Below, in pieces: positions 23,125 to 64,000 of a DNA stretch of 64,000 nt. This stretch comes from Filomicrobium sp. GTDB lineage: Bacteria > Pseudomonadota > Alphaproteobacteria > Rhizobiales > Hyphomicrobiaceae. Made by a program: the position numbers and the translations under genes. The notes below the pieces were generated by a model. The model did no database searches and was not told where the DNA came from. It saw only the letters and a program-made list of their open reading frames with translations. The stretch lies in contig CP051234.1 of assembly GCA_017792465.1 (NCBI GenBank), forward strand, positions 1,986,606 through 2,050,605. The letters are read 5' to 3'. Position 1 is the stretch's first letter, and every line of letters begins with the position of its first letter.

Positions 23125-24727
<1,603 letters not shown>

Positions 24728-24731
<4 letters not shown>

Positions 24732-43310: not shown

Positions 43311-43785
43311 TCCAGCACTGAAAGCCATCCTGAGTGGACCGTTCTCCTTTACCGCACGGCCCGAGCCGGTCGCCGGCGACTTGCGAATGTCCTGGGGCAT
43401 CGCGGTGCTGATACTCGCCTTGCTCCATTGCCGGGCCAAGAAGAGCAACTTTCAGAAACTGCAGTTCCTGGCGCATGCCGTGCGCCTTCCCGAAGGCCGG
43501 GAGGACGTCCGCAGAATGCTGAAAGGGACCGCGCACCCCGCGGATATTTCTGTGCGGGTCGAACCATGGCTGAACCGCGCGGTCGCCTACGCTCACGGAC
43601 TCAAACTTGTCTCGGTCGACAAGGGAAAATCCGTCGCGCTGACAGAGGCTGGCATGCGGGCAGCGAATGCCATCGCGCAAGACAAGAAACTGCTGGCTGA
43701 AGAACGGAAATTCTTGAGCGAAGTCGCTCCGAAACTCACTGCAGCACAGCTGGTCAAAATCTGGCGGATGGAGGACCTGCTATGA
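43300..43785 (+). CDS. Middle component (LmuC-like) of the ABC-three-component system
   Basis: 161 residues from ATG 43300, overlapping the nuclease-gene end; a frame back to 43225 is open but would overlap it by 86 bases. It is a small helical protein with a winged-helix feel: KSNFQKLQFLAHAVRLPEGRE, then VDKGKSVALTEAGMRAANAI. The size, gene position and low conservation match middle components that bridge the ATPase and effector. Its stop overlaps the ATPase start (ATGA). Confidence 0.68.
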   Translation: MPADPALKAILSGPFSFTARPEPVAGDLRMSWGIAVLILALLHCRAKKSNFQKLQFLAHAVRLPEGREDVRRMLKGTAHPADISVRVEPWLNRAVAYAHGLKLVSVDKGKSVALTEAGMRAANAIAQDKKLLAEERKFLSEVAPKLTAAQLVKIWRMEDLL

Positions 43786-45803
43786 CACTTCGCCTCCGGC
43801 ATCTTCGCCTGCGTGCCTCGACATCAGCAGGCCCGTATGGCGCAGATATTCCGTTCTGCCCCGGGCTGACGGTCATCTGGGCTGACAATACCAAGGGCAA
43901 GTCGACCTGCATGCAAGGCATGCTCTATGCATTGGGCCTGGAGCGCATGCTCAGCCCGCGGCGTGAAATCCCGCTTCCCCACGCCATGACTAGCTACCTG
44001 GAAACGGACACCAAGGAACGGCACCACATTCTGGAATCGCGCGTGTCGCTCGAGATTGGAAATGCCGCGGGTCAGATCGTGACCGTGCATCGGACGGTTA
44101 AGTCCCTCGTGGACAATCGGCTTATCAGCGTCGATTTCGGACCGACACTCACCGACGCGAACGCAACGGCCAAACACAGGAATTTCTTTGCTGTCGATCC
44201 GGGCGCAGCTCAGCGGGAGGATGGCTTTCACCATTTCCTCGAAGAGTTCCTTGGCTGGAAGCTCCCGCAGGTCAGGCGCTACGACTCAGCCGATGCGAAG
44301 TTGTATCTGGAGACTATATTTCCACTGTTCTGGGTGGAGCAGAAAGCGGGATGGTCCGCCATACCCGCTGCCATACCGACCTATCTGCGCATACGCGAAG
44401 TACACAAGCGTGCCATCGAGTTCATTATGGATCTCGATGTTCACAAACTTGAACTCCGGCGATTGCAGCTGGATGATCTGATTGCCGCGAACGTGCGGGA
44501 GTGGCGCACTCAATGGGACGAGGCAGACAAGCTGGCTCGGCGGAGTGGCTGCAGGATAGAAGCGTTGCCGCCGAAGCCGACGTCGATCTCGTCCGAGCTG
44601 GACGCCGTTCACCTGTCGATCGCTGAAAACAAGGACTGGATTCCACTACGGACACAGCTGTCGCGACTTCGCTCACAAGTGGCGGCAGCATTGGCTACTC
44701 CCGTTCCGTCCGTGGGAGCGTCATCCGCTGAACTGGAGCGCCAGCTCCAGGAGATTGGCGGTCAGATCGAGGCCGTGAACACCGAGCGCCTCAAGGTTCA
44801 CAATGCGAAGCGACTAAAAAGCACCGACATTGAATCGCTCAAGCGGCGGATCAAATCGCTTGCCGAGGATCTGCAGAAAAATCAGGATGTACAGAAACTT
44901 CAACGGTACTCAGGTGCAGTCGCCGATCTGACGCCGGATCGGTGTCCGACGTGCGAGCAGTCCCTGATCGATACACTGCTCTCGCAAGAAGCCCTGGCTG
45001 CCGTCATGCCGATCGAAGACAACATTGAATACCTACGCTCACAGCTCAAGATGTTTGAAGACATCCTCGCGAGGGAAGAGCACGACATCCGGTCTATAGA
45101 GCAGGCCGTTAGCCGGATGGACCGCGAACTCGCCGAATACTACAGCCGTGTTCGCACACTGCGCGCGGATCTGGTATCCGCAGGGTCAAGTCCATCGGCT
45201 ACGGTCATCGAGGAGCGGATTCGCACCGAAAGCCGCATTCGAGAACTCGAAGGCGTCCAGACCTCGTTCGAGGAGTTTATCCAAGGGCTGAAGCTGCTCG
45301 CAACGACGTACTCCGGCTTGCTCAAGGATCGCGCCGAGCTGCCTTCCGACAAGATGACGGCAGACGACAGAGCGAAGTTCAGAGAACTTACGAGGCTGCT
45401 ACGCGAGCAAGCCAGGGAATACGGCTTCAGCACCTTCGATCCTGCTGAACTCACCATCTCCGAGGATACCTATCGCCCCGAGAAGGAAGGTTTCGAGATC
45501 GGCTTCGAGACTTCGGCGAGCGACGCAATCCGGCTAAAGTGGGCATACCAGCTCGCTTTGCTCGAGCTAGATAGCGAAATCTCTACAAATCATCCAGGCG
45601 TGCTGCTCTTTGACGAGCCGCGACAACAGTCATCTGCAAAAGTAAGCTTTGAAAGTTTGCTCCAGCGGGCTGCATTAGCTAAACAGCGAAATCAGCAAGT
45701 GATCTTCTCCACCAGCGAAGAGCTCTCGAACCTGCAGAGGATCACCAGTGAGCTGGATTGCTCGGAACTGATATTTCCAGGATACGTCATTCAGCCGTTA
45801 TAA
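43782..45803 (+). CDS. SMC/Rad50-like ATPase (LmuB-like) of the ABC-three-component system
   Basis: 673 residues. Walker A near 35-42 (ADNTKGKST) follows an N-terminal strand set (PFCPGLTVIWADN). A long coiled coil is broken at its tip by a Rad50-type zinc hook, CPTCEQ (Cys388 and Cys391), and Walker B is GVLLFDEPRQQ near 606. This is a compact SMC-like ATPase typical of ABC-three-component and Lamassu systems, which bind DNA ends and release an effector. It is translationally coupled to the middle component. AT content rises near the 3' end. No terminator was seen. Confidence 0.85.
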   Translation: MTLRLRHLRLRASTSAGPYGADIPFCPGLTVIWADNTKGKSTCMQGMLYALGLERMLSPRREIPLPHAMTSYLETDTKERHHILESRVSLEIGNAAGQIVTVHRTVKSLVDNRLISVDFGPTLTDANATAKHRNFFAVDPGAAQREDGFHHFLEEFLGWKLPQVRRYDSADAKLYLETIFPLFWVEQKAGWSAIPAAIPTYLRIREVHKRAIEFIMDLDVHKLELRRLQLDDLIAANVREWRTQWDEADKLARRSGCRIEALPPKPTSISSELDAVHLSIAENKDWIPLRTQLSRLRSQVAAALATPVPSVGASSAELERQLQEIGGQIEAVNTERLKVHNAKRLKSTDIESLKRRIKSLAEDLQKNQDVQKLQRYSGAVADLTPDRCPTCEQSLIDTLLSQEALAAVMPIEDNIEYLRSQLKMFEDILAREEHDIRSIEQAVSRMDRELAEYYSRVRTLRADLVSAGSSPSATVIEERIRTESRIRELEGVQTSFEEFIQGLKLLATTYSGLLKDRAELPSDKMTADDRAKFRELTRLLREQAREYGFSTFDPAELTISEDTYRPEKEGFEIGFETSASDAIRLKWAYQLALLELDSEISTNHPGVLLFDEPRQQSSAKVSFESLLQRAALAKQRNQQVIFSTSEELSNLQRITSELDCSELIFPGYVIQPL

Positions 45804-46692: not shown

Positions 46693-47280
46693 ATGTATGT
46701 AATTGGCCTAGAAGGTGCTTGCTGCAGTGGCAAGTCTACAATGAGTATTGCGCTCCGGAAACATTTTGGGGCAGACGTAGCTTTTATTACGCCAGATTAC
46801 TCGGATCTAACGGAGCCACAGAGTCGTCCCACAACCCTTGCCAAGACATTTGACGAAGCTGTAACCAGTTTCGAATTCTACCTAAATATAGAGCGACAAC
46901 GATTGGAACAGGTAAGATCCTGGCATGGTAGCATTGTCATCGTTGATAGAACATATCATACACTGCTTGCCCATGCTTATGCAGTTGATTCTATTTCAAA
47001 CATCGAATCGTTCGAAGATCTAAAGAGGCTGTCAGATGGCGCGCCGCGAGTGGAACCGAATCAAATTATCTACCTTGACGCGCCTCGCAGTATTTTGATT
47101 GATCGTGCAAAGCTTCGGTCTCCCGACCTGCCGCTCGTATTCCATCACGAGGTCTATCTCGAAACAACACAGCACTATTTCAAAAACATGATCAAAGATG
47201 TCACGCCCATTGTTGTTGATTCGTCTGCATCACCAGACCGCACAGTAGCCTCCGCTATAAAGTACTTTAAGGTCAAATGA
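46693..47280 (+). CDS. P-loop nucleotide/nucleoside kinase-like protein
   Basis: 195 residues from ATG 46693 (an in-frame start at 46639 is possible). Walker A is GACCSGKS near 8-15, followed by a thymidylate-kinase-like body with the Asp-Arg motif VIVDRTYHTLL, IYLDAP and a lid-like Arg/Lys segment (DRAKLRSPDLP). It should phosphorylate a nucleotide, nucleoside or small sugar-like substrate. Its TGA overlaps the ATG of the glycosyltransferase gene, so they work together. AT-rich relative to the host. First gene of a putative biosynthetic island. Confidence 0.78.
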   Translation: MYVIGLEGACCSGKSTMSIALRKHFGADVAFITPDYSDLTEPQSRPTTLAKTFDEAVTSFEFYLNIERQRLEQVRSWHGSIVIVDRTYHTLLAHAYAVDSISNIESFEDLKRLSDGAPRVEPNQIIYLDAPRSILIDRAKLRSPDLPLVFHHEVYLETTQHYFKNMIKDVTPIVVDSSASPDRTVASAIKYFKVK

Positions 47281-48629
47281 GTTTAATAAATTTCATCGCC
47301 GTTCTTCTATGTGCCGCTATCCTTCTGAAAATTGTGGCTGATATTATCGCCTTTGAATTGTCGACCAGACATATTCTTTCTGCTCCCCAGATTGAGCAGG
47401 ATGATGTGGAGGCCTGGGCCACAGGTTCGAGGCGACTCCACATAGTGATACCGCTATTGAATGAGCAGAATCGGTTCGACGAGCTTGCAGCCCAGTTTCA
47501 GAGGATACTTGAAGAATACCCGTACACCACTCTGAACTTTGTGACTACGGCGCGAGAGCTAATAGCGGACCAAGACAATAAAATTACAACGATGGGTCTC
47601 ATTGATCGGTTTATATTTGTTCAAGAGGCAAAATTCCGTGAACGTATACGGAGAATGCATTATCCAAATGTGAATCAAACAATAGTAGAACAGTTGAACT
47701 ACGGCTTGCGTGTTGTTCTTAAACAATCCGGAGATCGCGACTTTGTCCTATTCTACAATGCAGATAGTGTAATTAGTCCCGATGATATTGGTCTTTTTGC
47801 GCGCGAGATCTGCGACCACCAGCCGGCCGCGATCCAGCAGTCGGCTCTGTTCCTAAATAACTTCGAAGCCTTGATTAACAATGGTCAATTTATTTGTGCT
47901 GCTGACGCCATTTTTCAATCTCGCTGGACATTATACCGGGAAATCCCTCGTTACCTTTTCTCTTCACATAACTCGCTGGGGATACCTATTTCTATTCGCC
48001 GCTTGGTGTTCCAGCATTGCACGACGCATGGCTTAGCAGTGAATGTGAAGGTAATGCGCAAACTAGGCGGGTTTCCTGTGACCAGGTTTGGACTCGAGGA
48101 TTCGGCAGTTGGATTTGCGCTAGGGGTGCGCCATTTGCAGATCCGCTCACTATCAAGCCTTGAGAATGCCGATGCCGCCACCAACGTTCGTTCTTTGATA
48201 ATGCAGAAGTCGACTTGGGTAAGAGCTGCTTGGGGGACAATTGAGTATTACTTCGACGCCATAAGATCGCAAGCGAACCAATTGACGGCTTTCGCATTCT
48301 TGCTGCAAGGCGTCTACATGAGTCTGAAGTGGTCCCTGGGAATCCCCCTGTTCATTGTGGCTCTCGTATGGGCTGATTCGACAACGCGAACAGTATTGAT
48401 TATCGGTTACTTGGGAATGGCATACATTCCTTATCTACAAATCTACTTTCTTTGGCGAAAACTTCCCCAAGATACTTTTCCGATTGTCAGCCTGGGGGAA
48501 TATTTAAGGGTAGCTCCGGCGATGTTAGGTGCTCCGTTTGTACACGGCACTGTTGGGCTGTTGGGACTTGTAAGGCTAATAAAACAAGTAGTCCTAAGGG
48601 AGAGCTTTAAACAGATCAAGACAAAGTGA
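47277..48629 (+). CDS. Membrane glycosyltransferase, family GT2-like
   Basis: 450 residues. An N-terminal membrane helix (about 3-25) is followed by a GT-A catalytic domain: HIVIPLLNEQNRF (about 58), the metal-binding DxD-like FYNADS (about 160), and the acceptor motif TRFGLEDSAVGFALG (about 270). Several C-terminal hydrophobic helices (about 345-430) anchor it. It transfers a sugar from a nucleotide donor to a lipid or membrane-near acceptor. Coupled to the kinase gene by ATGA overlap. Confidence 0.85.
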   Translation: MSLINFIAVLLCAAILLKIVADIIAFELSTRHILSAPQIEQDDVEAWATGSRRLHIVIPLLNEQNRFDELAAQFQRILEEYPYTTLNFVTTARELIADQDNKITTMGLIDRFIFVQEAKFRERIRRMHYPNVNQTIVEQLNYGLRVVLKQSGDRDFVLFYNADSVISPDDIGLFAREICDHQPAAIQQSALFLNNFEALINNGQFICAADAIFQSRWTLYREIPRYLFSSHNSLGIPISIRRLVFQHCTTHGLAVNVKVMRKLGGFPVTRFGLEDSAVGFALGVRHLQIRSLSSLENADAATNVRSLIMQKSTWVRAAWGTIEYYFDAIRSQANQLTAFAFLLQGVYMSLKWSLGIPLFIVALVWADSTTRTVLIIGYLGMAYIPYLQIYFLWRKLPQDTFPIVSLGEYLRVAPAMLGAPFVHGTVGLLGLVRLIKQVVLRESFKQIKTK

Positions 48630-48736
48630 AGATTTGTCTTGTGTGAATTGAATGTGGACATTTGAGAGTTCCTGATTGAGAGAGAGAGGCAAGTCTGGCA
48701 ACCTCGAAAAGTTTAAAGCCTTTGGCGAGCAACTCC

Positions 48737-49417
48737 ATGAAACTTAAGCAGTCAGATAAAAAATCTCAGACTCTACTTCCTTTACTCAGTAAGGTGGTTT
48801 TTGTCGATTGGCATGGCGTGTTAAGCGATACGCCATTTTGGCATTCAATGCGCCACAAGCGTCTTGGGCCAGGTTTTAATTTTGCTGAGAAAATTTCTGA
48901 AGAGCTTTTTGTCAACAGAGCAGACTTAGTTGCGGATTGGATGAGAGGCAAAGCATCGTCCGATGATGTAGTCACTGCGATGCGAAACGGTTTATCGCAA
49001 GAGGGACAAGTTATTGAAATCGATTTGCTAGAAAAACTTAAGCGGGACTGCAAGTTTATGAATTATGATCGCGGCCTACTTGGAAAATTGCAGACCATTC
49101 GCAGCTCCGCCTACTTGACACTTGCTACAGACAACATGGATTGCTTTGTAGAGGCGTTACCGAAGAGACCATCTTTATACCGTCATTTCGATTTTGTGCT
49201 AAGTTCATCAGAACTTGGTGTTCTAAAGAAAGAAAGTGTAGAAACTTTTTTTGGAGACTGGCTTCATGCTCATGGCCTAAGTTACTCGCAAGCGCTTTTG
49301 ATTGACGACAGAAATGACAATTGCGACGCATTTCGGTCGGCCGGAGGGCATGCAACTGTTTACTCTGGCTGGGAGTCGATTCGACGAGATCTTACGTTGT
49401 TCCTAAATCTCGACTAG
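48737..49417 (+). CDS. HAD-like phosphatase
   Basis: 226 residues from ATG 48737 (TTG 48722 is in frame). HAD motif I is VFVDWHGVLSD with Asp nucleophile and His in place of the usual second Asp; motif II is in LTLATDNMD, the lysine in GVLKKESVE, and motif IV is LLIDDRNDNCDAF. It should remove phosphate from a sugar or nucleotide intermediate. Its 3' end overlaps by 26 bases the convergent HD-domain gene, a compact arrangement within the island. Confidence 0.82.
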   Translation: MKLKQSDKKSQTLLPLLSKVVFVDWHGVLSDTPFWHSMRHKRLGPGFNFAEKISEELFVNRADLVADWMRGKASSDDVVTAMRNGLSQEGQVIEIDLLEKLKRDCKFMNYDRGLLGKLQTIRSSAYLTLATDNMDCFVEALPKRPSLYRHFDFVLSSSELGVLKKESVETFFGDWLHAHGLSYSQALLIDDRNDNCDAFRSAGGHATVYSGWESIRRDLTLFLNLD

Positions 49418-50171
49418 GCTCTGGTATGGGTTCAAGAAGATTGGACACGCGCCTGCGGAACTGATCTAACTTTACCGACGTGACGCTGAGTGTACAGTCG
49501 TGCATCAACTTTAGCATCACATCCAATTGTTTTGTGGCGGCTATTTTTGTGCATTTGAAATGCATAAGAGCAGGAAGTCGAATAATTTTTTCAAAAAAGT
49601 GGTCCAGCATGTATTGAGTTGGTTCTAACTGTCGATTTAGCGCTAGAGGGTCAACTGGATGGCAAGCCAGTGACCCAATTTGCCCGGACACGTAAAACAG
49701 TCTTGAAAAACCTACGATTCCAAGCGCATCTAACTTGTCTGCATCGCTTATTATTCTGCCCTCGATACTTGTTGGCTTTAAGTTTGCGGAAAAGCTATGG
49801 CTTTTTATTGCATCGGCTACAATAGAGCACTGCTTCTTCGTGAAACCAAGCTCCAGGAGTAATGGGGCTACTGCCTCCGCACTTTGCTTTGCGGCGTGTG
49901 CTCGAAATTCTGAGTTCTTGGGAAACTGTATAAAGTCGTGTAAGTAAGAGGCAGCAGCTAAGATTCGTGAATCTGTTGTCTTCAAGGATTCTTCGTGTAC
50001 GATCCAAATCGAAGTGTTGAACACCCTCCGAAAGTGTCCAAGATCGTGGGCGCCATCAGTGCTCCCGGAGAGGACTATGTTTTCAAGGCGCTCGATTAGT
50101 AGTTCATTGTCGTCAATTGTTGCGAGCATGTACGTCGGGCTTCCTATTTGTGGATTGCTCGTCAGAAACAT
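49392..50171 (-). CDS. HD-domain phosphohydrolase
   Basis: 259 residues from ATG 50171; ATG 50129 is an alternative start. HD-superfamily metal ligands are visible: GAHDLGHFRRV, then ASYLHDFIQFP (His-Asp) and ISDADKLDALG (Asp). This pattern matches the YedJ-type uncharacterised hydrolases that act on phosphate esters of nucleotides or similar compounds. It faces the HAD gene, overlapping it at the 3' end, and diverges from the deacetylase gene. Substrate unknown. Confidence 0.85.
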   Translation of the reverse strand: MFLTSNPQIGSPTYMLATIDDNELLIERLENIVLSGSTDGAHDLGHFRRVFNTSIWIVHEESLKTTDSRILAAASYLHDFIQFPKNSEFRAHAAKQSAEAVAPLLLELGFTKKQCSIVADAIKSHSFSANLKPTSIEGRIISDADKLDALGIVGFSRLFYVSGQIGSLACHPVDPLALNRQLEPTQYMLDHFFEKIIRLPALMHFKCTKIAATKQLDVMLKLMHDCTLSVTSVKLDQFRRRVSNLLEPIPEPSRDLGTT

Positions 50172-50273
50172 GGAGCGAGAATCAACCAGTATCGATTAAC
50201 TATATAATGGATTTTAGGCATATTGAAGAATGGATTTGTCGATTAGATTAAGCAACCGAATTATCTTGTTGAT

Positions 50274-51037
50274 TTGTTTGGGGCGACAAAATTGCACATA
50301 TTGGTAGTGTCTCCGCATTTAGACGACGCCTGCTTCTCGATCGGCGGTTTACTTGCGCGATTGACATGCGAGAAGACGATTTGTAACGTTTTCAGCTTGA
50401 CCAATTACTCGAAGACTGTGTCGCCTTCGTTAGGAACTGACCGAATAGCTTCCGTTAGCCGTCAGCGTAGAGGAGAGGATGTGAAATTCGCAAGGTTGAT
50501 TGGTGCGACACAAGTAAACCTAGACCTCCAAGACGCTATCGTTCATTCAACAGACCCATTTAGCCAGACAAACCTGTCAATGCAAAGAATACAGGCCGTA
50601 GAGAGAGCAATCCTTAGGCAACTGAGCACACCAGTCCGTCACGTGGATTTTATTTTTGCTCCACTGGGTATAGGAAAACATGCGGATCATGTGGTGGCGA
50701 ATCTGGCCATCCGGAACTTGATAAAAAAAAACTCCGCGTAGGTGTGGCCTATTATGCAGATTTACCTTATGCGCACAGGCATTCGCTTCAAGATCTGGTG
50801 CTTGTCGTAGGTAGGGCTTTTCCAAATTGCGTTTACCGGAATCTTCTGAATGTCATGACGCGAAGAAATCTCGACGCGAAAATTCGAATGGCAAAACTAT
50901 ATCAGAGCCAGATATCAAGATCCGATTGTGACTTGAGGCGGAGATTGTGCATAAATGATAAGTCAGCTAAGTGCGAAGCGGTTTTCGGGCCGTATACGAC
51001 CCTAAAAAGATTGGAGCTAGTTCTTGCTCGGACTTAA
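50274..51037 (+). pseudogene. PIG-L family deacetylase split by a frameshift in an A9 run
   Basis: Part one (from an in-frame TTG at 50274 to TAG 50741) has the zinc motif SPHLDDACFSIGG and the distal HADHVV, typical of LmbE/PIG-L enzymes that remove acetyl groups from N-acetylglucosamine-type sugars. The frame fails at a run of nine A (50723-50731): after Leu-Ile-Lys-Lys it meets TAG, whereas one more A gives Leu-Arg-Val-Gly-Val-Ala-Tyr-Tyr-Ala-Asp and runs on to 51037. Either one A is lost (mutation or read error) or transcriptional slippage or -1 frameshifting makes the whole protein. It converges with the GT4 gene (21-base overlap). The true start is uncertain. Confidence 0.8.
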
Positions 51038-52093
51038 GATACCTTGATCAATCAAGCGCGTCGCCGGGTCTTTTGCGAACTGCGAGTAATGTTCAACGAG
51101 ACCTTTGCGATGAGTTTCTGTAATCGGGTTATCCAAAAGGTTTTTCAGAGCTTCAGCCCAGGCCTCGGTATCTTTAGCCACGATTGAGCGAGGGTCTGCC
51201 ACCGTCTCTGGAAGTCCACCTGAATCGGATACTAGACTCGGCACGCCGTGAAGCCCAGCTTCCACTACCACTCGCCCGAAACCTTCTGGGGCCAAACTAG
51301 GCACCAGAAGCACAAGAGTCTGCGACCAAACATGGCTCATGGATTGTTGCTGAGGTAGAATTCTCAAATTCGGAGGTGGATTGCCGTGCAGTTCTTGGTT
51401 AGGGAACCAGGCCTCTACGGCTAAGAACTTCAGTCTTGGAAATTTTTCACATAGCTCAACTAGTGTAGAGAGCCCCTTCGACGGAATTGGGTTGACCATT
51501 GTAACGTAGTTTCTAGGGCCATCGAAGATGAATTGTCGAGGTAGAATAAAGGGTGGATAGAACAAATAACTCTTTGCACCAAACTCTTGGTGAAGAAACT
51601 GCTTTACGTATTTGGAAGTTGCCAAGATGCGGTTCGGATTACTCATCAGCACGTTAGTTGACCTCGCTGAAACTGAGTGAACCCACGCTATAGCAAGCGC
51701 GTCGTTGCATTTTGCGCACTCAACCAGAGGTCCGGAGTCTTCGAAAGCGGTTATCAATGTCTTCTTTGAGCAGGAGCTCTTTCTGAGCACCTCGTTTGTT
51801 ACTGGCACTATACGGGATTGGCTGGTAGCCACGCACCTGACACCATTCCAGTTGTAAATTACTTCATTTGGTCGCTCGACGACATCCGTAGTGTCTGCTG
51901 CTACTTTTATAGCGTGCAATAATTCTTTTTCGCTTTGGGCCCATTCGCCTTCTGGTGCAATCAGAGTTCCGATGAAGTGTACTCTAAACCCCTGACGAGC
52001 TAGGCTTTGGGCGAGCAGCCTCATAGAGACCTCTGCTCCACCTAAAAACATTGGCGGAGGCAAACGCCTCCACGACATGATAACGTCAGTCAT
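51017..52093 (-). CDS. Glycosyltransferase, family GT4-like
   Basis: 358 residues from ATG 52093; the start could instead be 52078. The N-terminal domain has the GGAEVSMRLLAQSLARQG motif of GT-B enzymes. The C-terminal domain has the strand RNYVTMVNPIPSKGLSTLVE, then PSLAPEGFGRVVVEAGLHGVP with the two glutamates that bind the nucleotide sugar. GT4 enzymes paired with a PIG-L deacetylase are known in mycothiol, bacillithiol and aminoglycoside pathways, where a GlcNAc-type sugar is added and then deacetylated. Co-oriented with the RHH-like gene upstream. Confidence 0.88.
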   Translation of the reverse strand: MTDVIMSWRRLPPPMFLGGAEVSMRLLAQSLARQGFRVHFIGTLIAPEGEWAQSEKELLHAIKVAADTTDVVERPNEVIYNWNGVRCVATSQSRIVPVTNEVLRKSSCSKKTLITAFEDSGPLVECAKCNDALAIAWVHSVSARSTNVLMSNPNRILATSKYVKQFLHQEFGAKSYLFYPPFILPRQFIFDGPRNYVTMVNPIPSKGLSTLVELCEKFPRLKFLAVEAWFPNQELHGNPPPNLRILPQQQSMSHVWSQTLVLLVPSLAPEGFGRVVVEAGLHGVPSLVSDSGGLPETVADPRSIVAKDTEAWAEALKNLLDNPITETHRKGLVEHYSQFAKDPATRLIDQGILSPSKN

Positions 52094-52153
52094 CTCCAGA
52101 ACTTTTCGGCAGAAACAACACAATACAGAAAAAACGAGAGAGTCTAGAAAAAT

Positions 52154-52825
52154 TCATTGTCCCATCTGATGTTGGCGTTGGGACTGAATTACTATAAGGT
52201 CTCGGACGAGGTGGTTAATGCTGCCTGATTTAGTTGCGTAAGCAATTTCGGCGATTCGACTTGCATCACTAGCAGCTAAACTCAGCTCAAGAGTTCTGGA
52301 GCTGCTTTGAATTCCTTCGTCTTGATTGCTGATCAATTCTGTATGATTTCGGATACTTTCTAGCCATGAATTAAGCTGTGATGGATCGCTTTGCAAGGGC
52401 AATTCTCGAAGCACCAAGTCTGCTATATAAGCGCTTAAACTAATACCTTTCTGTCGGGACTGCCTGATTAAATCTGTTCTAAGCGCGTCAGAAACTTCGA
52501 TTTGGAATTCCAATTTCTTATTAATTGCAACAGGGACCTCTTTCAATGACGAGACAATTTCGGATAATTCAGCCTCGCCTTTATCAAGAACAGCCGTTTC
52601 GAGTCGGGATAAATAATTGTCATACGCTTCATCCGCAAATTCACCATAACCAGTTATTGGAATGGTATTCAGCTCAGTCCCCTCAAGTTGCCGAATAATA
52701 TGTGTTCCTGTCGAGGCATGAAAAAACTTGTCAAACCGTACGCTAGCAAGATCAACTACAGCCCGCCTCAGCAACCCAAGCTGCGAACTGTCTGCGCTAT
52801 TATCAATTAGCCGGACGCTGTCCAT
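52154..52825 (-). CDS. Unrecognised protein with a ribbon-helix-helix-like segment
   Basis: 223 residues. A region near 103-145 (KLEFQIEVSDALRTDLIRQ then GISLSAYIADLVLREL) resembles a ribbon-helix-helix DNA-binding fold, suggesting a local regulator or antitoxin-like protein. A second similar pattern may occur near 180-215. The N-terminal ~100 residues are unique. AGAAG lies upstream of ATG 52825. It sits in the middle of the biosynthetic island, upstream of the GT4 gene on the same strand. Confidence 0.65.
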   Translation of the reverse strand: MDSVRLIDNSADSSQLGLLRRAVVDLASVRFDKFFHASTGTHIIRQLEGTELNTIPITGYGEFADEAYDNYLSRLETAVLDKGEAELSEIVSSLKEVPVAINKKLEFQIEVSDALRTDLIRQSRQKGISLSAYIADLVLRELPLQSDPSQLNSWLESIRNHTELISNQDEGIQSSSRTLELSLAASDASRIAEIAYATKSGSINHLVRDLIVIQSQRQHQMGQ

Positions 52826-53262
52826 CGATCTTCTTCCCCCACATCGAATTCGCGGCTAGAATCGTTACCGCAATTCGACATATCTTGCCATACAGCGAGA
52901 TGACCCTATCGACAAGTTTTGTAACTGTGACAGCCGATGGCTTTGATCTAGCAACGAATGACGCCAGATATAACAATGGGGTAAGTCGACGTCACAAGTC
53001 ATTGTATCTGCGGGCAACTCTATTGTCTATCTCGTATTTGCCGTGTATTGACCAAGTGGTTGTTTGAGCTAAACACTTCATATGTTCCGTCGATGCGCAA
53101 ATTATGTTGCGGTGCGGCAACAGCTGTTTTCTATCAGCGGTACATTCTAAACGAGAGTACGGCTAGCCGAGGGTATAAGGCTGCTGCCGTGCAGATTTGT
53201 TGGGCGATACCGACCATTTGAGGATGTGCAGGCTATAATTGCCTAGTGTGGGGTTACTAACT
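52826..53262. other. Intergenic promoter region of the oxygenase gene
   Basis: About 430 bases between divergent genes with no supported frame. A TATAAT box at 53234-53239 lies just upstream of the oxygenase; the matching -35 (around 53211) is poor. The first possible start codons come 9 and 24 bases after this box, so the transcript leader would be very short. Confidence 0.45.
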
Positions 53263-54312
53263 GTGAATTCCAGATTAGCTACCTCTCGGCTAGCTGCCCC
53301 GCTGCAGCTGCCTGAGCTTTCAGCCCGGCCTGGGACGGCCGTTGTTAGCGAAGATGCGCTTCAGAAGGCAGACTATGTTGCCGAGCAACTTCCTGTCGCC
53401 TTTCGGTCACATATGAACCTCTTGGCGATGAATATTCTATCCGCTGTTAAGTTAGAGGGAGCATTTGATCTAAATCTTGCTGCAGACAAGGTACCGACGC
53501 ACTTCACAGACACCAATTGCGATCCTGCCTGGTGGCCTGCTGCAGGAATAACAATGGCAATCTGTGATTCACTTGGCATCAACCTTTGCTCATATGCTGT
53601 TGAGAACGAAGGAGAATTATTTGTCCATCTAGTGCCTACGATAGGTGACAGCCCGCAGGCGAAAAAGTCACGTGGCGCCATGCGGGGACATACCGATGGA
53701 GTAGTATTGCCTCTTCCTTGGGAAGTTACACCCAATGACGGCCTCGCACCATCACCCGATTTGGTAATACTTGTAGGACTAAGAAATTCGCACCATGTGG
53801 CCACCCGGCTTGCGCCGATCTCTGCCGTAATACGGAAATTGGCGAAAACAACATTACATATACTGCAAGAGCCACTTTACGATATCTCCCCGCAAATTTC
53901 GTTTAGGATGCCTAGCGATCACGTGAGGGAGAGGTGCCCGGTAATCGTTCGTGACCAACATGAGGGGTATATTATTCGGTTCAGCCACGGCAATGTTTCT
54001 GCCAACTCCGCAGCGGGAGTTGCGGCAGATGTTGCCTTGGTGGATTTGAAAGACGCGATATCGACTTCATTCGAAAATGTGGTGGTAAAGCCTGGCGACA
54101 TCTTGTTTGTAAATAATCGCACAAGTTTGCACGGTCGCGAAGAAGTAATGATCGGACTCACTAAGAATAGATGGCTATTACGTTCGTATGGACTCTACTC
54201 CGAGCTGTCGCCTTATTTGATTGATGCCAAAAAAAGCAATCACATGCTTCTTCCTGCACGCAAAGATGACACTGTAGGTCACCGAGTTACTATACCTCAA
54301 CCAGATGCCTAG
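53263..54312 (+). CDS. Fe(II)/2-oxoglutarate-dependent oxygenase (TauD/clavaminate-synthase-like)
   Basis: 349 residues from GTG 53263; GTG 53248 is possible. The iron facial triad is visible: His-x-Asp in MRGHTDGVVLPL and the distal His in VNNRTSLHGREE. The 2-oxoglutarate-binding Arg is in RWLLRSYG. It should hydroxylate or desaturate a substrate such as an amino acid or amino sugar, as clavaminate synthase or VioC do in antibiotic pathways. It is the only oxidative tailoring enzyme of the island. IS5 and IS66 scraps follow directly. Confidence 0.85.
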   Translation: MNSRLATSRLAAPLQLPELSARPGTAVVSEDALQKADYVAEQLPVAFRSHMNLLAMNILSAVKLEGAFDLNLAADKVPTHFTDTNCDPAWWPAAGITMAICDSLGINLCSYAVENEGELFVHLVPTIGDSPQAKKSRGAMRGHTDGVVLPLPWEVTPNDGLAPSPDLVILVGLRNSHHVATRLAPISAVIRKLAKTTLHILQEPLYDISPQISFRMPSDHVRERCPVIVRDQHEGYIIRFSHGNVSANSAAGVAADVALVDLKDAISTSFENVVVKPGDILFVNNRTSLHGREEVMIGLTKNRWLLRSYGLYSELSPYLIDAKKSNHMLLPARKDDTVGHRVTIPQPDA

Positions 54313-54385
54313 CGCAGCAGCTTCAGGGATGTCGTGTAGTTTGTGTTGTGGCAGCAGACTCGCTTTGCAATCGCCCGGTAGTGCC

Positions 54386-54610
54386 TCAGTTAGTTGAAGA
54401 AGCGTGCCCCCCCGGATTGGTCCACTGCACGAAACTGTTGTCGCAGGCCGTAGTCCTGTACCCCTGGCGATTGCCAGCTTTGGGATGGTGCGAATAGATC
54501 AACCTGAGCAGGGTCGCCCACGGCACCACCACCTCCGAAAGAAATCGCTCGCGTTTCGTCCGCTTCTTCTTGTATTGGTGGTCAAGCGTTGCAAAGCTCA
54601 GCAGGCTCAT
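54386..54610 (-). pseudogene. IS5-family transposase N-terminal remnant
   Basis: From ATG 54610 on the minus strand about 45 residues match the start of IS5-family transposases: SLLSFATLDHQYKKKRTKRE followed by FLSEVVVPWATLLRLI and HHPKAG. The following residues lose the pattern and the frame ends at 54386. The catalytic DDE part is absent, so the element is dead. Confidence 0.72.
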
Positions 54611-54639
54611 CGTCCCGCGACCCTCAAATCAACATCGAC

Positions 54640-54766
54640 ATTGTGCTGTCAACGCTGGAGAGAATGTAGGCCAGATTGACCGATCATCTCGCCAAGCGGA
54701 TCGACGACCTCATGCCCTGGAACTGGAACGCGCCAGCTTGACCTGCGGTGTTCGCCGGATGCTTAC
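54640..54766 (+). pseudogene. IS66-family transposase C-terminal remnant and IS end
   Basis: The frame 54673-54741 reads Arg-Leu-Thr-Asp-His-Leu-Ala-Lys-Arg-Ile-Asp-Asp-Leu-Met-Pro-Trp-Asn-Trp and then stops, the characteristic C-terminus of IS66-type transposases. The sequence continues to TTCGCCGGATGCTTAC (ending 54766), which looks like the IS66 terminal repeat. The stop codon of the aminotransferase gene (54768-54770) is one base further, so this IS end abuts, and may have clipped, that gene. Confidence 0.75.
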
Positions 54767-54767
54767 C

Positions 54768-55997
54768 CTAAATCCGTTCTAAAATAGTTTCCAGGATCTC
54801 ACGCGCTGCAGCTTCTCGGATCGCTGGCAGGCGAAATCCTACCGTTGATTTGGAAATGCGGTCCGCGTTGGGGCAGGATGTGCTGAACTCGCTCAACCAG
54901 GGATAAGTTTCAAAAGCCAAACCAAGTTTGTATTTTTGCGAATCGCAAATTGCACCACCCTCATGGAAAACCCTATGGATTTCGTTTCGATCTTTTTCCG
55001 ATGCGGCAATGCATGTAAATCCATAGCTTGACGACCTGAATTCTGGATCCTCCTTTGGCCAATGCAATCCCAGATTGCCGCAGAATTTTTGATCGCAAAG
55101 ATTAAAGAGCAACTTCCGGTGCGTTATTTCATCTTTGATATACTGCAGGTTATCGAGACCAGCCCTTGCACCATAACCAGAATGCTTTAACTTTAGGAAG
55201 AGTTCGTTATTGGAAAATATTCTTCCTCCAAACTCGCGTATCTCCTGCGCTCTCTCGGCGTATGTGAGTTGTTGGCAAAGCAAATATCCTCCTTCACCTG
55301 TCTGCAACAGCTTATTGTTGTGAAGACTGCCGCATCCGATAACACCAAACGTACCTATTGGCTTGCCCAAATAGCTTGCGAATTGGGACTGGGCTATGTC
55401 CTCAACATGAAGGATTCCAAATTTATTCAGGAGCTCAACTACTTGTCGGCTGAATGGCTGTCGCCCCCACATCCCAACGGTAATCACCGCATCAATCGTT
55501 GATTCGGAAAGTTGGCTTTCTAGCGCTCGAGGATCCAACGAAAACGGGTAATCCAAGTCTACGTCGATAAAGACGGGTATGTTCTTCGATAATACAATCG
55601 GTATATAACTCATGGCGGGTGCAAGAGGTGAAATCGCTATTCTCTTCCCGCCCGCTGGGAACAGTATTTTTAGAGCAATAAAAATTGCTGTCGTTCCAGA
55701 ATTTGTTGTGACGGCATGCGGGCATAAAAAGGTGCGTGCTAGTGCTCCCTCAAACTTTTGCACTATATCGCTGCTACCGGAGAAATTGATTTCAACCATT
55801 GAATGTATACGATTCCTATTTTGGGGACAGACTACTAAATCGTTTGGCAATCGGCTGAGACTACCAGTGTACAATGGAAATTGTAAATCCCTCCCATGTT
55901 GGCTGAGGTCACCTGGTCTATGTTTGGTGCAGACGCCGCGCACTTCAATGAGATCACCCTTGGCCAGCCCCGGCAGAGATCTCTTCGTTTTCTCCAC
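54768..55997 (-). CDS. DegT/DnrJ/EryC1/StrS-type aminotransferase
   Basis: 409 residues from GTG 55997 (AAAGAG just upstream). PLP-fold features: TTNSGTTAIFIALK (about 97), HVEDIAQSQF with the ring-stacking Asp, and the PLP lysine in SLHNNKLLQTGEGGYL. Members aminate keto-sugars attached to nucleotides, or keto-cyclitols. It is 10 bases downstream of the methyltransferase gene. Its C-terminus ends one base from an IS66 terminus, so it may be slightly altered, though length is normal for the family. Confidence 0.87.
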   Translation of the reverse strand: MEKTKRSLPGLAKGDLIEVRGVCTKHRPGDLSQHGRDLQFPLYTGSLSRLPNDLVVCPQNRNRIHSMVEINFSGSSDIVQKFEGALARTFLCPHAVTTNSGTTAIFIALKILFPAGGKRIAISPLAPAMSYIPIVLSKNIPVFIDVDLDYPFSLDPRALESQLSESTIDAVITVGMWGRQPFSRQVVELLNKFGILHVEDIAQSQFASYLGKPIGTFGVIGCGSLHNNKLLQTGEGGYLLCQQLTYAERAQEIREFGGRIFSNNELFLKLKHSGYGARAGLDNLQYIKDEITHRKLLFNLCDQKFCGNLGLHWPKEDPEFRSSSYGFTCIAASEKDRNEIHRVFHEGGAICDSQKYKLGLAFETYPWLSEFSTSCPNADRISKSTVGFRLPAIREAAAREILETILERI

Positions 55998-56007
55998 CTC
56001 TTTTATT

Positions 56008-56571
56008 TTAATTTCGGCGATAAAACTGCAAAAGCTTATATCGAAGGGAAGGGGATATTTGGCCGTGGTCTACGGCGTTTGCGACTAGTTGTCGAGTTTG
56101 TTGAAACCCATTGCTCCCAGTATAGAAGGCGAGCTGTCCTCCAGTTAGTGTCTTTTCAATCATGAGTGAGAGTAAACCTTCATCATCCAAAGGTGCGTAT
56201 GAATTTCTTTCAGAATAATATTCGCAAAGGTGAAAAAGCGTAACTATGTCGAAGCTTGGCAGTTGCACGCGAGATAAAGTGTAAATATCGCAGAATATCG
56301 CTTTATAGTATACGGAAAGCACCGGCTTTTTCATCACTAAATCCATGTAAGCCTGATATTCGGGAATGCTTGCCGTAACTCCAATAACGGTGTTTTTACA
56401 GCGTTGATTATAATCTGCGGTTCCAACAATGTGATGTAGCCCCGTTCCAAAGTGGAAGATAGTATTATTCGATATTTTTTTTAATGCTATGTACTCTATG
56501 AATTGTATATCGCAAGGGCAGACCTCTTCATTGAGTCGCCAGGCGTCATCGTATGATGCAAACATCTCCAT
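56008..56571 (-). CDS. Class I methyltransferase-like protein
   Basis: 187 residues from ATG 56571, with AAGGAG upstream; the frame back to 56616 is not needed. A Rossmann-type pattern is visible: NTIFHFGTGLHHIVG (motif I-like), then ASIPEYQAYMDL, and the motif IV strand SFDIVTLFHLCEYYS, followed by GGQLAFYTGSNG. The glycine loop is shortened, so S-adenosylmethionine binding is likely but not certain. First gene of a two-gene transcript with the aminotransferase. AT-rich. Confidence 0.68.
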   Translation of the reverse strand: MEMFASYDDAWRLNEEVCPCDIQFIEYIALKKISNNTIFHFGTGLHHIVGTADYNQRCKNTVIGVTASIPEYQAYMDLVMKKPVLSVYYKAIFCDIYTLSRVQLPSFDIVTLFHLCEYYSERNSYAPLDDEGLLSLMIEKTLTGGQLAFYTGSNGFQQTRQLVANAVDHGQISPSLRYKLLQFYRRN

Positions 56572-56850
56572 TGAGCACTCCTTAGAGATACCGCTGAACT
56601 GTAGCGACTGCGCCACGGAGCCGCCTCGGCTTTCCTGAACGATGCATTGTTTTAGTTACATGGCAATTACCAGCCTCATCGCGCTGAAAAAGTAGTTTGT
56701 CTCGTCTTTGGCAGGCTGTTGAAAACCATCTGATGAAAAATATTGTTATTTGAACTTTTCAACCTATTCATGCATTGAAGCTTCTCCGTCATTGAATTTG
56801 CTATGTGGTGGTCGCTGAACTCAAGCAGTCCCATCGATATTAGCGATGTG

Positions 56851-58107
56851 TCACTGCAATCTAGTGCGGCGGCTCTTATGGCAGTGGCTTTGCGGGCTTT
56901 GCAACCTCAACCCAGCCAATGCGGCTCTTATCTCCGTAAGCCGTATCTCTGCTTGTTCTCGAAACAACCTCCGATCATGTTGCAGCGCCTGCCGCTCCAG
57001 TAGCTGTCGACGGATCAGGGCTTCCCGTTCCTGCGCATGAGCGAGCAACTGTTTCTGTGTCGCCTGCTCGATCTGCTGCTTATTTTTGTCATACTTACCA
57101 GTCAGCCGAAACCATATCGCCTTAAGCCCGGTCGGCAACAAAGCTGCGTGGCGGCGGATTGTGACTCGGCGCTGTTTTTCTTGTGCTCTCGCCAGTGCGT
57201 TTCGGGCCTCGCGTTGTTGGCGGCGCATGTTATGAAGGCGCTTGAGGAATTCTCCTTCGGCCCTTTCAAGCGTACTGGCTTGTTCATCTTGTCTGCGCTG
57301 CAGATCCTTATCAATCTTCCTGGTGAGGATCGCTTTGGCGTCTTCAACAGTTGGTAGGTTGTCGGGCTTACCAAGTTTTTCGCGGACGTCTTTGGCACTA
57401 ACACCCGCCCACCGGCTCACAGCATAGACATTGTCTTGCCAATCTACGGCGAGATAACCGCGCCGGTCGCCCTTCGCCAGAAGCAGGCCGTTTTGTTCCA
57501 GCGCTGATTGGAAGGATTTCACGTCATCACATCGATTCCAGCAGCGCTGAACGAGTGCCTTCATGGCCCTTGGGTCTACGCCGGCCCGCTTGGATTGCTG
57601 CCACTCAGGTAAGCCATAGTTCAGCGGGTCGCGGTCTTTGGTATTCGCCAGGCCTTTCGGCAGGCGCCAGCCATGTTCGAGGAACAACTCGCGGCTCTGG
57701 TCCCGCAATTTGGACTTGAAATAGGGCAGATTGATCGCTCGCATCTTGCTCGTATCTACGCGCAGCCACACTGCATGGCAGTGCCTCCGCGCTTCCTTCT
57801 CATGAAAGACGATCGCTCGTGGTTGCCCGGATAGCCCCAGTCGATCCTCGATTTTTGCTATTCCTTCTTCGAATTCGGCCACGGTTACGCGCGCCCGCTC
57901 CGGAGGATTGAGGCTCAGTGAGAATAAGAACTGGCGGCAGCGCTTGGTGCCTCGGCTGATTGCATGGGCTTCCTTCATTGCGCCATGCAGATCATCGGCC
58001 ATGAAGCCCCGCACCTCATGCAGCGTGACGTGGTCATTGTCCGCGTCATTCATGAGATGGTTGGCGAGTTGGATTCCGCCGGCACGCTGTGATCCCTTCA
58101 AAATCAC
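56851..58107 (-). CDS. MobA/VirD2-type relaxase
   Basis: 418 residues from GTG 58107. The relaxase domain lies in the first ~190 residues: MILKGSQRAGGIQLANHL, HVTLHEVRGFMADDLHGAM and the metal-binding HUH-like strand RHCHAVWLRVD. The C-terminal ~200 residues are a very charged Arg/Gln/Glu coiled coil. The relaxase nicks oriT and leads the strand into the recipient. It follows mobC by only 7 bases. It lies 28 kb from the coupling protein, but both read the same way. Confidence 0.9.
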   Translation of the reverse strand: MILKGSQRAGGIQLANHLMNDADNDHVTLHEVRGFMADDLHGAMKEAHAISRGTKRCRQFLFSLSLNPPERARVTVAEFEEGIAKIEDRLGLSGQPRAIVFHEKEARRHCHAVWLRVDTSKMRAINLPYFKSKLRDQSRELFLEHGWRLPKGLANTKDRDPLNYGLPEWQQSKRAGVDPRAMKALVQRCWNRCDDVKSFQSALEQNGLLLAKGDRRGYLAVDWQDNVYAVSRWAGVSAKDVREKLGKPDNLPTVEDAKAILTRKIDKDLQRRQDEQASTLERAEGEFLKRLHNMRRQQREARNALARAQEKQRRVTIRRHAALLPTGLKAIWFRLTGKYDKNKQQIEQATQKQLLAHAQEREALIRRQLLERQALQHDRRLFREQAEIRLTEIRAALAGLRLQSPQSHCHKSRRTRLQ

Positions 58108-58114
58108 CGCAGCC

Positions 58115-58552
58115 TCATGTCTTTAGGCCAAGCGCCCAGATCAGATGCCGACGTATTTCCATGACATAAAGATAAGCTTCTTTGATCTGGCTCTGCGTTT
58201 GCTCGTCCATGAGTAGCGATCCCAGATGGGATTCCTTGGCCAACTGGTTGAGGTTGTTTGCGATTTTGGACTGACCGAGAAGGGCGAGCACTTGTGCCAA
58301 TTCTTCCCGATCCTTGATCGGCGCCTTGCTGCTCGATTTGCGCGGCGAGACCTCTTCGGCGAAGAGCACCATGCGGATGTAGGCGCTAAGCGTCATCGTC
58401 TGCGCCAGTTCTTCAAGTTTCGCCCGCTCTTCCGGGGTCAACCGCAGCGTAATCGGCGATGGCCTCTTTGCCTCGACCGGCTTCCTGGGCGTCTCAATCG
58501 CACGATTGAAGATCTCACGCGGGGAGAATTCCTGGAATCCTTTATTCCTCAT
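58115..58552 (-). CDS. Mobilisation protein MobC
   Basis: 145 residues. An RHH-type N-terminal region (ITLRLTPEERAKLEELAQTM followed by LSAYIRMVL) and the signature GQSKIANNLNQLAKESHLGS are typical of MobC relaxosome proteins, which open the oriT duplex for the relaxase. It directly precedes mobA. The origin of transfer is therefore expected in the short stretch upstream (58553-58670), although no nic motif was recognised. Confidence 0.9.
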   Translation of the reverse strand: MRNKGFQEFSPREIFNRAIETPRKPVEAKRPSPITLRLTPEERAKLEELAQTMTLSAYIRMVLFAEEVSPRKSSSKAPIKDREELAQVLALLGQSKIANNLNQLAKESHLGSLLMDEQTQSQIKEAYLYVMEIRRHLIWALGLKT

Positions 58553-58661
58553 GGGCTTGATCCCCCATGAGCTTGGTCAGGTTTCCTTCGCTCAGGTGCT
58601 TCTCCCAACGCTCCAGTTCATCAAAAAGGGTGTTCGAGGTTTCTCCCTCAAGGCCCACCAT
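58542..58661 (-). CDS. Possible small protein upstream of mobC
   Basis: 39 residues from ATG 58661, ending inside the first codons of mobC (11-base overlap). The sequence EGETSNTLFDELERWEKHLS looks like a genuine amphipathic helix rather than random translation. There is no clear Shine-Dalgarno. It may be the remains of a longer gene whose beginning was replaced by the repeat array to the right, which would place the element boundary at about 58.66 kb. Confidence 0.4.
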   Translation of the reverse strand: MVGLEGETSNTLFDELERWEKHLSEGNLTKLMGDQAHEE

Positions 58662-58664
58662 TCT

Positions 58665-58875
58665 TGGTTGGCCCTTCGGTTGCCCACTCGGCAACCGGGC
58701 CATGACAATTCTCCGCGAGAGTATTCGCTTGGCCCTTCGGTTGCCCACTGCGCAACCGGGCCGTGACGCTCCTCCGCAAGCTTGTTTGTCGCGCTCCGGA
58801 TGCCCACGCTATGTTTTTTTTCTAACACTTCCTAAAGTCGTGTTACGAGCGCTTCGGCGCATCCGCGCGCCTGGA
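58665..58875. repeat. Second array of REP-like palindromic repeats
   Basis: Three copies of the family seen at 12.4 kb: arms at 58670-58684/58690-58701, at about 58731-58745/58752-58762, and a split copy with arms at 58791-58804 and 58857-58870. The first copy is almost identical to the last copy of the left array, including the trailing ATGACAATTCTCCG. The third is opened by about 50 bases with a T8 run and a TAACAC/GTGTTA mini-hairpin. Since the left array lies in host DNA, this array argues that host sequence resumes by 58.66 kb. Confidence 0.8.
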
Positions 58876-59065
58876 AAAGCAAAGAAAATTGTTCGGCAAT
58901 GGCCGCACCACGAAAACAAGCGGCGTTAAGCGTTCTTCACTTGGCGATGAACTGGATGCGCGAATAGGGACCGACCACGCTCGCCGAGCAGATGCTGAGC
59001 GAAACGGAGCGATGTCCTGTAACGTAGCCCCATGGGGTGACCCGTCGGCTGCAGCGCGAGTTCAC
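58876..59065. other. Intergenic, no gene seen
   Basis: Spacer between the repeat array and the stop of the cupredoxin-like gene. Short frames have no recognisable content. Confidence 0.4.
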
Positions 59066-59497
59066 TTATTTGACTTTGATTGTGCCCTTCATTCCTTTGT
59101 CGGCCAGTCCTTCGCATTCCCAGGTGTATTCACCAGGATGGATCGGCGTGAAGAAGAGCTCGGCGGATCCTTCCCGCTCAAACTCGATCTCATATACGGC
59201 CTGGAACTTGAGTTCGACCTTGTTGACTTCGATCTTGCGGAACCAAACGTTTCTGAAAAATTCCGGTGCGACGAACGCGCATTCTTTCGCCCCGGTTGCC
59301 TTGATCCATAGGCGATAGCCTTTGCCGGTCTCAAGATTGTAGTCGTGATTGGAAACACCGTAACCGGAAGCTCCAAGCCCGACTTCGATGTCAGGAAGGC
59401 GTTCGGTTCTTTGAACGAGGAAACCCTCGGCGTGGGCATTCGTCAGGGCAAACATCGTCAGGGCCAATGCACCGACACGCGTAATGAGTTCATGCAC
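59066..59497 (-). CDS. Exported cupredoxin-like protein
   Basis: 143 residues from GTG 59497, chosen because GGAG lies upstream and a signal peptide starts here (VGALALTMFALTNAHA, cleavage before Glu-Gly-Phe); ATG 59575 is an alternative. The mature protein ends in PIHPGEYTWECEGLADKGMKG, resembling the C-terminal copper loop of cupredoxins with Cys and Met. The usual His between them is missing, so copper binding is doubtful. Being close to PQQ-associated genes, it might be a periplasmic electron-transfer or structural protein of that system. Confidence 0.68.
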   Translation of the reverse strand: MHELITRVGALALTMFALTNAHAEGFLVQRTERLPDIEVGLGASGYGVSNHDYNLETGKGYRLWIKATGAKECAFVAPEFFRNVWFRKIEVNKVELKFQAVYEIEFEREGSAELFFTPIHPGEYTWECEGLADKGMKGTIKVK

Positions 59498-59744
59498 GTT
59501 CGTGGTCTCCAGAATATTGAGCCGCTCAACAATGCCTTGAACTAGCTTCACAAGCTTGCAGGGGTCAACGCGCATGAATTCCCGAATCTTTGTGTGAAAA
59601 TTCTTGGCCGTATCGGGAACTTTCCTGCTTACGGAACCCATGCATTCGAGAAGATTTCGCAAAAGGCTGAATTGCGAACAGGCCTCCTGTGAGTGCAATC
59701 AATCGTAAAGATTTGCGCTCGCCTTCGGGAGGTTGTCCCATTCC

Positions 59745-59880: not shown

Positions 59881-59911
59881 TTTGCCGGATTGCGCCGAAT
59901 TCCGTGCAACG

Positions 59912-61087: not shown

Positions 61088-61187
61088 CGGGCCACTCCCT
61101 GGTCACTCAATTGCATTTCTCAAGGACAGTTGTCTTGGGTCTGGACGCCGTCGAAAACGCAGGTTGGCTTGTGACGTCCCGACCGGG

Positions 61188-61655: not shown

Positions 61656-61686
61656 TCGAGGCTACCTTCGCGCTTTCAGATTATCC

Positions 61687-62667: not shown

Positions 62668-62695
62668 CTGCGTTTCCTGAAAGCTGTTGTTTTAG

Positions 62696-63964: not shown

Positions 63965-64000
63965 ACCGCTCCTATTTACGCAGCAACAAACCAGCAAATC

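Follow-up and report, generated by a model that had tools for sequence, protein, structure and literature searches.

A low-G+C island of ten genes in a Filomicrobium genome: a candidate mobile cassette for an amino-sugar glycoside

We identified an AT-rich island of ten genes, spread over both strands, in a 64,000-nucleotide stretch of a Filomicrobium sp. genome (the window; positions 1986606-2050605 of one 4.47 Mb contig). The island lies at 46693-56616 of the window, left of a relaxase gene and a MobC-like gene, and its composition is foreign: its G+C content is 46.7% overall and 42-49% in each of the ten genes, against 59.2% at window positions 1-22000, 54.8% in the adjoining mobile DNA (23151-46000) and 56.0% at 56851-64000; the third-position G+C of the island genes is 38-51%, against 62-68% in three flanking genes that were measured. 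An earlier note on this DNA had listed the same ten genes and strands and had called the island AT-richer than its host; the positions of the open reading frames (ORFs) and the base composition agree with it on both counts. We read the island as a laterally acquired composite cassette that lies on integrative or mobilisable DNA and would make a specialised metabolite, a small amino-sugar glycoside; we hold this reading at about even confidence. Subsets of the island genes recur together in distant bacteria, so the island probably encodes a small-molecule pathway rather than random cargo; this particular gene set may form one pathway.

The island genes are rare near the host (counts are for other genomes only; the samples overlap and were drawn from larger groups). 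The GT2 glycosyltransferase has no relative in 384 genomes of the host's class at 1e-10, and the profile of the HAD-superfamily protein matched none of 198 genomes of the host's order at 1e-10. The kinase profile had a single match among 384 genomes of the class (at 1e-12), and its surroundings are unlike the island: on the short contig concerned, ORFs look by eye adenylate-kinase-like and secretion-type, and there is no cluster. This rarity in the host's own order and class fits a lateral gain.

The earlier note would have called the island a chance accumulation had homologues of its genes never occurred together elsewhere; they do occur together, in three combinations above all: kinase, GT2 and HAD in Nocardia; kinase, GT4 glycosyltransferase and PIG-L deacetylase in Streptomyces; and GT2, PIG-L, DegT aminotransferase and kinase in another actinomycete. 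On a plasmid of Nocardia sp. NBC_01377, at about 100-106 kb, relatives of the kinase (24% identity), GT2 (31%) and HAD protein (36%) stand in the island's order and strand, as the end of a consecutive and mostly overlapping row of genes for a nucleotide-sugar dehydrogenase, a glycosyltransferase, a weak polysaccharide-deacetylase match, the kinase, GT2 and HAD. This row has the dehydrogenase and the weak deacetylase match in lieu of a PIG-L gene, and this stretch has no relative of the island GT4, DegT or 2-oxoglutarate (2OG) oxygenase.

The Streptomyces combination is a cassette of GT8, APH, GT2, PIG-L, kinase and GT4 genes, found at 25 loci and on a plasmid of S. zaomyceticus. A scan with a two-row GT4 alignment (island protein P0008 and the S. 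zaomyceticus GT4, a seed that favours S. zaomyceticus-like loci) gave 56 pattern stretches and 25 relatives, all of them in Streptomyces. In 24 of the 25 loci no more than 30 bases separate the GT4 match from a kinase match upstream of it; in L037 the distance is 1.4 kb (the kinase match is partial in L031 and L032), and the island protein P0004 matches the Streptomyces kinase in all loci except L031 (24/25). PIG-L is present in 23 of the 25, as are GT8, APH and a second GT2 (23/25 each), and DegT matched in a single locus (E 4e-4). The cassette shares with the island the GT4 (33-37% identity), the kinase (26-32%) and a PIG-L that is only distantly like the island's (P0007 against the S. zaomyceticus PIG-L, E 7e-4); it differs in having its genes in a one-strand row and in having no relative of the island GT2, HAD, 2OG oxygenase or methyltransferase-like gene. 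Mobile-element genes lie near both the island and the Streptomyces cassette (by annotation in L011; in L016 and L022 by eye, as relaxase- or integrase-like ORFs). In L011, and by eye also in L022, the cassette (conserved across L016-L040) is accompanied by a helix-turn-helix regulator and a divergent gene for a phosphotransferase. Full-text literature searches, which covered part of the matching literature and left subscription journals mostly outside, gave no description or published name of this cassette.

The GT2 profile matched four of 394 actinomycete-class genomes, two of them near-identical, and in all three distinct loci a DegT gene lies 1.2-3.0 kb from GT2. The G1017 locus (L049) contains a kinase, GT2, PIG-L (overlapping GT2), NUDIX, DegT, a second kinase-like protein and a radical S-adenosylmethionine (SAM) protein; the G984/G914 locus contains GT8, GT2, kinase and DegT; and the G1089 locus a distant GT2, DegT and ORFs that by eye resemble nonribosomal peptide synthetases (NRPS). 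Only the G1017 kinase is an independent find of the kinase profile, which matches twice in that genome, more strongly at 2.5 kb from GT2; the kinases of G984 and Nocardia are themselves rows of that profile. Thirty-five genomes of G1017's order contain no GT2 relative beyond the three already known. Outside the actinomycetes, a Rhizobium BT04 plasmid (L012) has a kinase (28%) followed by an HAD-type gene, together with glycosyltransferases, and on the opposite strand, within about 4 kb, DegT (29%), Gfo/Idh and NUDIX genes; its HAD protein gave no match to the island's P0005. Since parts of the island pair elsewhere in such varied combinations, a modular type of pathway is favoured and pure chance disfavoured. 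The surroundings of HAD relatives in Rhizobium rhizogenes and in C104 and of a DegT relative in Rhodococcus (annotation tables) are not island-like, and no cluster was seen around an HAD relative in Nonomuraea (ORF list). We also observed, on a Mycetohabitans endofungorum megaplasmid (L058, 6242-17565), a row of Gfo/Idh, DegT, NUDIX, DegT, flavin-dependent (FAD) oxidoreductase, HAD, desaturase, methylthioadenosine (MTA) phosphorylase and transporter genes; its NUDIX gene beside DegT recurs in Rhizobium BT04 and G1017.

Family or fold could be assigned to eight of the ten island proteins. Five pass a Pfam cut-off (kinase, HD, PIG-L, GT4 and DegT), and three (GT2, HAD and 2OG oxygenase), which are under the cut-off or have no Pfam match, are assigned through relatives, motifs and NCBIfam or PDB matches, so that the families given in the earlier note stand except for its ribbon-helix-helix (RHH) protein and its methyltransferase, which were not confirmed. 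Catalytic motifs were found in all island proteins checked. The first gene (46693..47280, plus strand, overlapping the next by 4 bases) encodes a P-loop kinase of the deoxynucleoside/thymidylate-kinase fold (dNK/TMPK, among the families compared), barely over the Pfam dNK cut-off (27.6 bits, cut-off 27) and with an intact P-loop (GACCSGKS). It shares the fold of thymidylate kinase proper but is under the cut-off for that enzyme (TIGR00041, 28.4 of the 83.25 bits needed). The membrane-anchored GT2 (47277..48629, plus strand) is 31% identical over 385 aa to the Nocardia glycosyltransferase; it scores 16.2 bits in Pfam (cut-off 27), its relative in L049 30.8, and it has the motifs NADS, LED and QKSTW and hydrophobic segments at residues 1-30 and 346-364. 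The HAD-superfamily protein (48722..49417, plus strand) shares 36% identity over 214 aa with the HAD encoded directly after GT2 on the Nocardia plasmid; it has no Pfam match itself and a weak NCBIfam HAD match, and the Nocardia relative matches PF00702 (37.8 bits, cut-off 26.4). HAD-type phosphatases usually have a second Asp in motif I; here the motif is DWHG, with His at +2 in place of that Asp, which makes a phosphatase role less certain. The HD-domain phosphohydrolase (49392..50171, minus strand; PF01966, 39.6 bits, cut-off 22) has the motifs HDLGH and HD, and is PRK10119-like, though under the cut-off of that family (147 bits, cut-off 286).

The N-terminal part of the PIG-L deacetylase, with PHLDD and HADH motifs, is encoded at 50274..50741 (plus strand; PF02585, 51.8 bits, cut-off 28.2). 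A second ORF in another frame (50744..51037, plus strand) has no Pfam match by itself, and we infer from its position and frame that it is probably the C-terminal remainder. The GT4 (51017..52123, minus strand; PF00534, Glycos_transf_1, 44.5 bits, cut-off 26.4) is 35% identical over 329 aa to the S. zaomyceticus GT4. The next protein (52154..52825, minus strand), the one called RHH-like in the earlier note, is an orphan, with no family in Pfam, NCBIfam, PADLOC or PHROGs and no plasmid relative at E 0.01.

The Fe(II)/2OG oxygenase (53239..54312, plus strand) is of the clavaminate-synthase/VioC type by its NCBIfam and PDB matches and its motifs; it scores 24.9 bits against Pfam TauD (cut-off 27) and matches arginine hydroxylases in PDB at 2.3e-6. 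The 2-His-1-carboxylate triad and the 2OG-binding Arg are present (HTD 151, LHGR 297, RWLLR 311, aligned with VioC). The description "clavaminate-synthase-like" is correct at superfamily level, the same superfamily and Fe and 2OG motifs being found in the VioC, CmnC, OrfP and GntD hydroxylases. An identity with VioC or GntD itself was rejected, with scores far under the NCBIfam cut-offs (VioC, 42.1 of 418.6 bits; GntD, 59.2 of 345). In VioC, Asp268 and Asp270 form the pair that binds the guanidinium group, according to the available parts of two sources (PMC10884159, PMC9513391); that pair is apparently absent in the island enzyme, in which, in a gapped alignment, SHGNVSA stands opposite VioC GDFSA, with Asn opposite the second Asp and a gap opposite the first. 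The DegT-family aminotransferase, which uses pyridoxal phosphate (54768..55997, minus strand; PF01041, 118.8 bits, cut-off 19.8), has the motif SLHNNK and matches a sugar aminotransferase in PDB at 2e-22, better than the scyllo-inosose aminotransferase test structure 2c7t (5e-19). The last gene (56008..56616, minus strand) encodes a conserved protein, possibly a class I methyltransferase, with no family in the libraries searched (NCBIfam, PADLOC and PHROGs among these) and a single-sequence structure model that is unusable (predicted local distance difference test score, pLDDT, 35); two Burkholderia replicons encode a relative with 39.5% identity, at a place without entries in their gene tables.

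We infer a single pathway, with its substrates, the order of its steps and any activity of its product. The GT4 would use a nucleotide sugar to attach an N-acetylhexosamine to a small acceptor, and PIG-L would strip the acetyl group to leave a free amine. The nucleoside-kinase-fold enzyme would phosphorylate the acceptor or an intermediate (a nucleoside or a sugar), and the HAD protein, perhaps with the HD protein, would later take the phosphate off. The membrane GT2 could attach a further sugar at the membrane, DegT put a second amine on a keto-sugar, and the 2OG oxygenase hydroxylate an amino-acid-like or attached group. In this reading the kinase is the hub of the cassette.

Several points weigh against such a pathway. 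The whole gene set was found at no other locus, and the 2OG oxygenase, RHH-like and methyltransferase-like genes were not seen with other island relatives in the loci examined; the 2OG oxygenase is absent from 58 other relatives (at 0.001) and from 298 other genomes of the phylum (at 1e-15), and one plasmid place, in Roseomonas, is fragmentary (62% covered) and outside any similar cluster. The Nocardia kinase link is weak (E 4e-4), and that plasmid has no DegT. The 25 Streptomyces loci carry orthologous copies of a single cassette and count as one case, and none of those genomes has the island GT2 at 1e-8 (0/25; the GT2 search took in 26 of 27 sequences, L006 being left out); the DegT and PIG-L links between loci are at family level only. 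DegT matches number 15, 9 and 18 in the three actinomycete genomes (8.4, 7.1 and 8.0 Mb), so that under uniform placement a DegT gene falls within +-5 kb with a chance of 1.5-2.5% per genome; the product of these chances, 7e-6, is too optimistic, because biosynthetic genes cluster anyway. Among the island ORFs no exporter, self-resistance or scaffold gene was recognised, and the genes lie on both strands. PIG-L is split between two frames, and an A9 run immediately precedes the end of the first ORF; the split may reflect a sequencing error, slippage or real decay, which look alike in the sequence, and the island may no longer be functional. Between the 2OG and DegT genes lies what is probably an insertion sequence (IS) scar, with probable IS5 and IS66 transposase scraps at 54389..54742 (no strand assigned): in a six-frame reading, short stretches in the island resemble transposase ends, which we take from their motifs to be of IS3, IS5 and IS66 type, and the two pieces searched (including 54392-54628) have no Pfam match. 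The IS borders of the earlier note have these transposase-end-like motifs in their favour and lack a Pfam match in those two pieces; its sugar-tailoring pathway finds support in the recurrence of kinase, GT2, HAD and GT4 relatives, together or with PIG-L or DegT, in Nocardia, Streptomyces, other actinomycetes and Rhizobium, and loses by the points just given.

It is also possible, though we think it unlikely, that the island serves to decorate surface glycans or lipid-linked oligosaccharides: the membrane GT2, GT4, DegT and PIG-L would act on a capsule, O-antigen or glycolipid and might alter a phage receptor, beside the Lamassu defence genes that lie upstream. The membrane anchor and motifs of GT2 would suit this role, and in Gloeothece a distantly related GT2 (26%, E 3e-7) has genes of ABC-transporter, glycosyltransferase, polysaccharide pyruvyl transferase and sulfotransferase type around it, which speaks against a small-molecule product (another GT2 relative is in Vibrio). 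In the same direction point the Burkholderia relative of the methyltransferase-like gene, which by eye lies between GT4-like and polysaccharide-deacetylase-like ORFs (in L014 only), and the best DegT matches in NCBIfam, of LegC and enterobacterial-common-antigen type, all far under cut-off. However, we recognised none of the island ORFs as a gene for a flippase, a polymerase, an initiating transferase or nucleotide-sugar synthesis, the loci of closer relatives carry APH-like, radical SAM or NRPS-like genes (NRPS by eye), and surface-glycan loci do not usually include a nucleoside-kinase fold or a 2OG oxygenase.

Somewhat less probable to us is a chance accumulation of cargo on mobile DNA, in which two or three short modules (kinase-GT2-HAD; PIG-L and GT4; DegT and the methyltransferase-like gene) and orphans never formed one pathway and some are decaying. 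The two strands, the IS-like scraps, the split PIG-L, the orphan gene, the lack of a full-set relative and the separation of GT4 from GT2 in the Streptomyces genomes would all be explained by it; but kinase, GT2, HAD and GT4 are linked elsewhere to each other and to PIG-L or DegT, all ten genes are alike in their low G+C, and the catalytic motifs checked are present. We consider very improbable a nucleotide-based module for defence or conflict that works together with the adjacent Lamassu system: kinase, HD and HAD proteins can act on nucleotides and the GT4 matches Pfam "GT4-conflict" (29.3 bits, cut-off 26), but that match covers residues 259-337 only and two general models of GT4 score higher (44.5 and 43.5 bits), the GT4 of Streptomyces falls short of the same cut-off (21.3/26), and PADLOC gave one weak match (the kinase, 15.8 bits) among the ten proteins.

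We also raise a bolder idea that we would sooner doubt than hold: the island could be a fused member of a family of mobile metabolite clusters that spans phyla and has not been described, in which the nucleoside-kinase-fold hub stays constant while glycosyltransferases, deacetylases and DegT are exchanged around it; the product would belong to a new class of amino-oligosaccharides, phosphorylated or nucleoside-linked, for which no scaffold synthase is known. If so, small mobile saccharide or nucleoside clusters, whose core lacks the hallmarks of NRPS, polyketide synthases (PKS) or 2-deoxystreptamine, would have been overlooked; they would occur both in actinobacteria and in a host far removed from these; and the kinase, GT2, HAD and GT4 subfamilies could serve as four markers for genome mining.

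Comparison with known systems gave likeness in part. The earlier note had named mycothiol and bacillithiol as parallels for GT4 with PIG-L; the enzyme classes are the same, but the parallel fails at the curated cut-offs, which are missed widely by the GT4 (MshA, 35.7 of 462.5 bits; BshA, 31.9 of 273.7) and by the N-terminal piece of PIG-L (BshB1, 21.7 of 182.5; BshB2, 16.6 of 195.25). Its statement that no core-scaffold synthase is present agrees with our scan, which was confined to the island ORFs and in which we recognised neither a 2-deoxy-scyllo-inosose synthase nor another scaffold gene for 2-deoxystreptamine. TunE of the tunicamycin cluster is a PIG-L-type deacetylase, and that cluster also has a radical SAM enzyme and an acyltransferase, neither of which was recognised in the island. 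In the part of the source available, tunABCDEH are essential and TunD is predicted to add N-acetylglucosamine (GlcNAc) to tunicaminyl-uracil (PMC6105854); likened by this description, not by tun sequences, the logic is similar, a nucleoside-linked scaffold being given GlcNAc.

The island lies in a mobile setting. A large serine recombinase ORF (23125-24731 region) runs into the 3′ end of tRNA-Ala(GGC) at 23125-23200, and this junction is probably the left end of an integrative element; genes for a DNA-transfer protein of type IV secretion system kind, a ParB-like protein and a resolvase come next. Nearby we found no further copy of the tRNA-Ala end that would mark the right end; elsewhere in the genome it is matched at 3255071 (91%) and 2567919 (78%, partial). 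A plasmid origin of the island DNA itself was rejected after a megablast of 39500-64000 gave no match, and a phage origin after scans of viral contigs with GT2 (twice), GT4, the methyltransferase-like protein, HAD and 2OG oxygenase confirmed no relative. The Lamassu genes are at 42327-45803 (E values: LmuA 1.9e-25, LmuC 1.1e-18, LmuB 7.1e-109) and end 0.9 kb upstream of the island kinase. To the right of the island, beside the mobilisation genes, 58668-58780 contains two 52-nt direct repeats, 87% alike and 61 bases apart from start to start; and a WD40-repeat protein is encoded at 59912-61087, with eight Pfam WD40 stretches and a DNA period of 126 nt.

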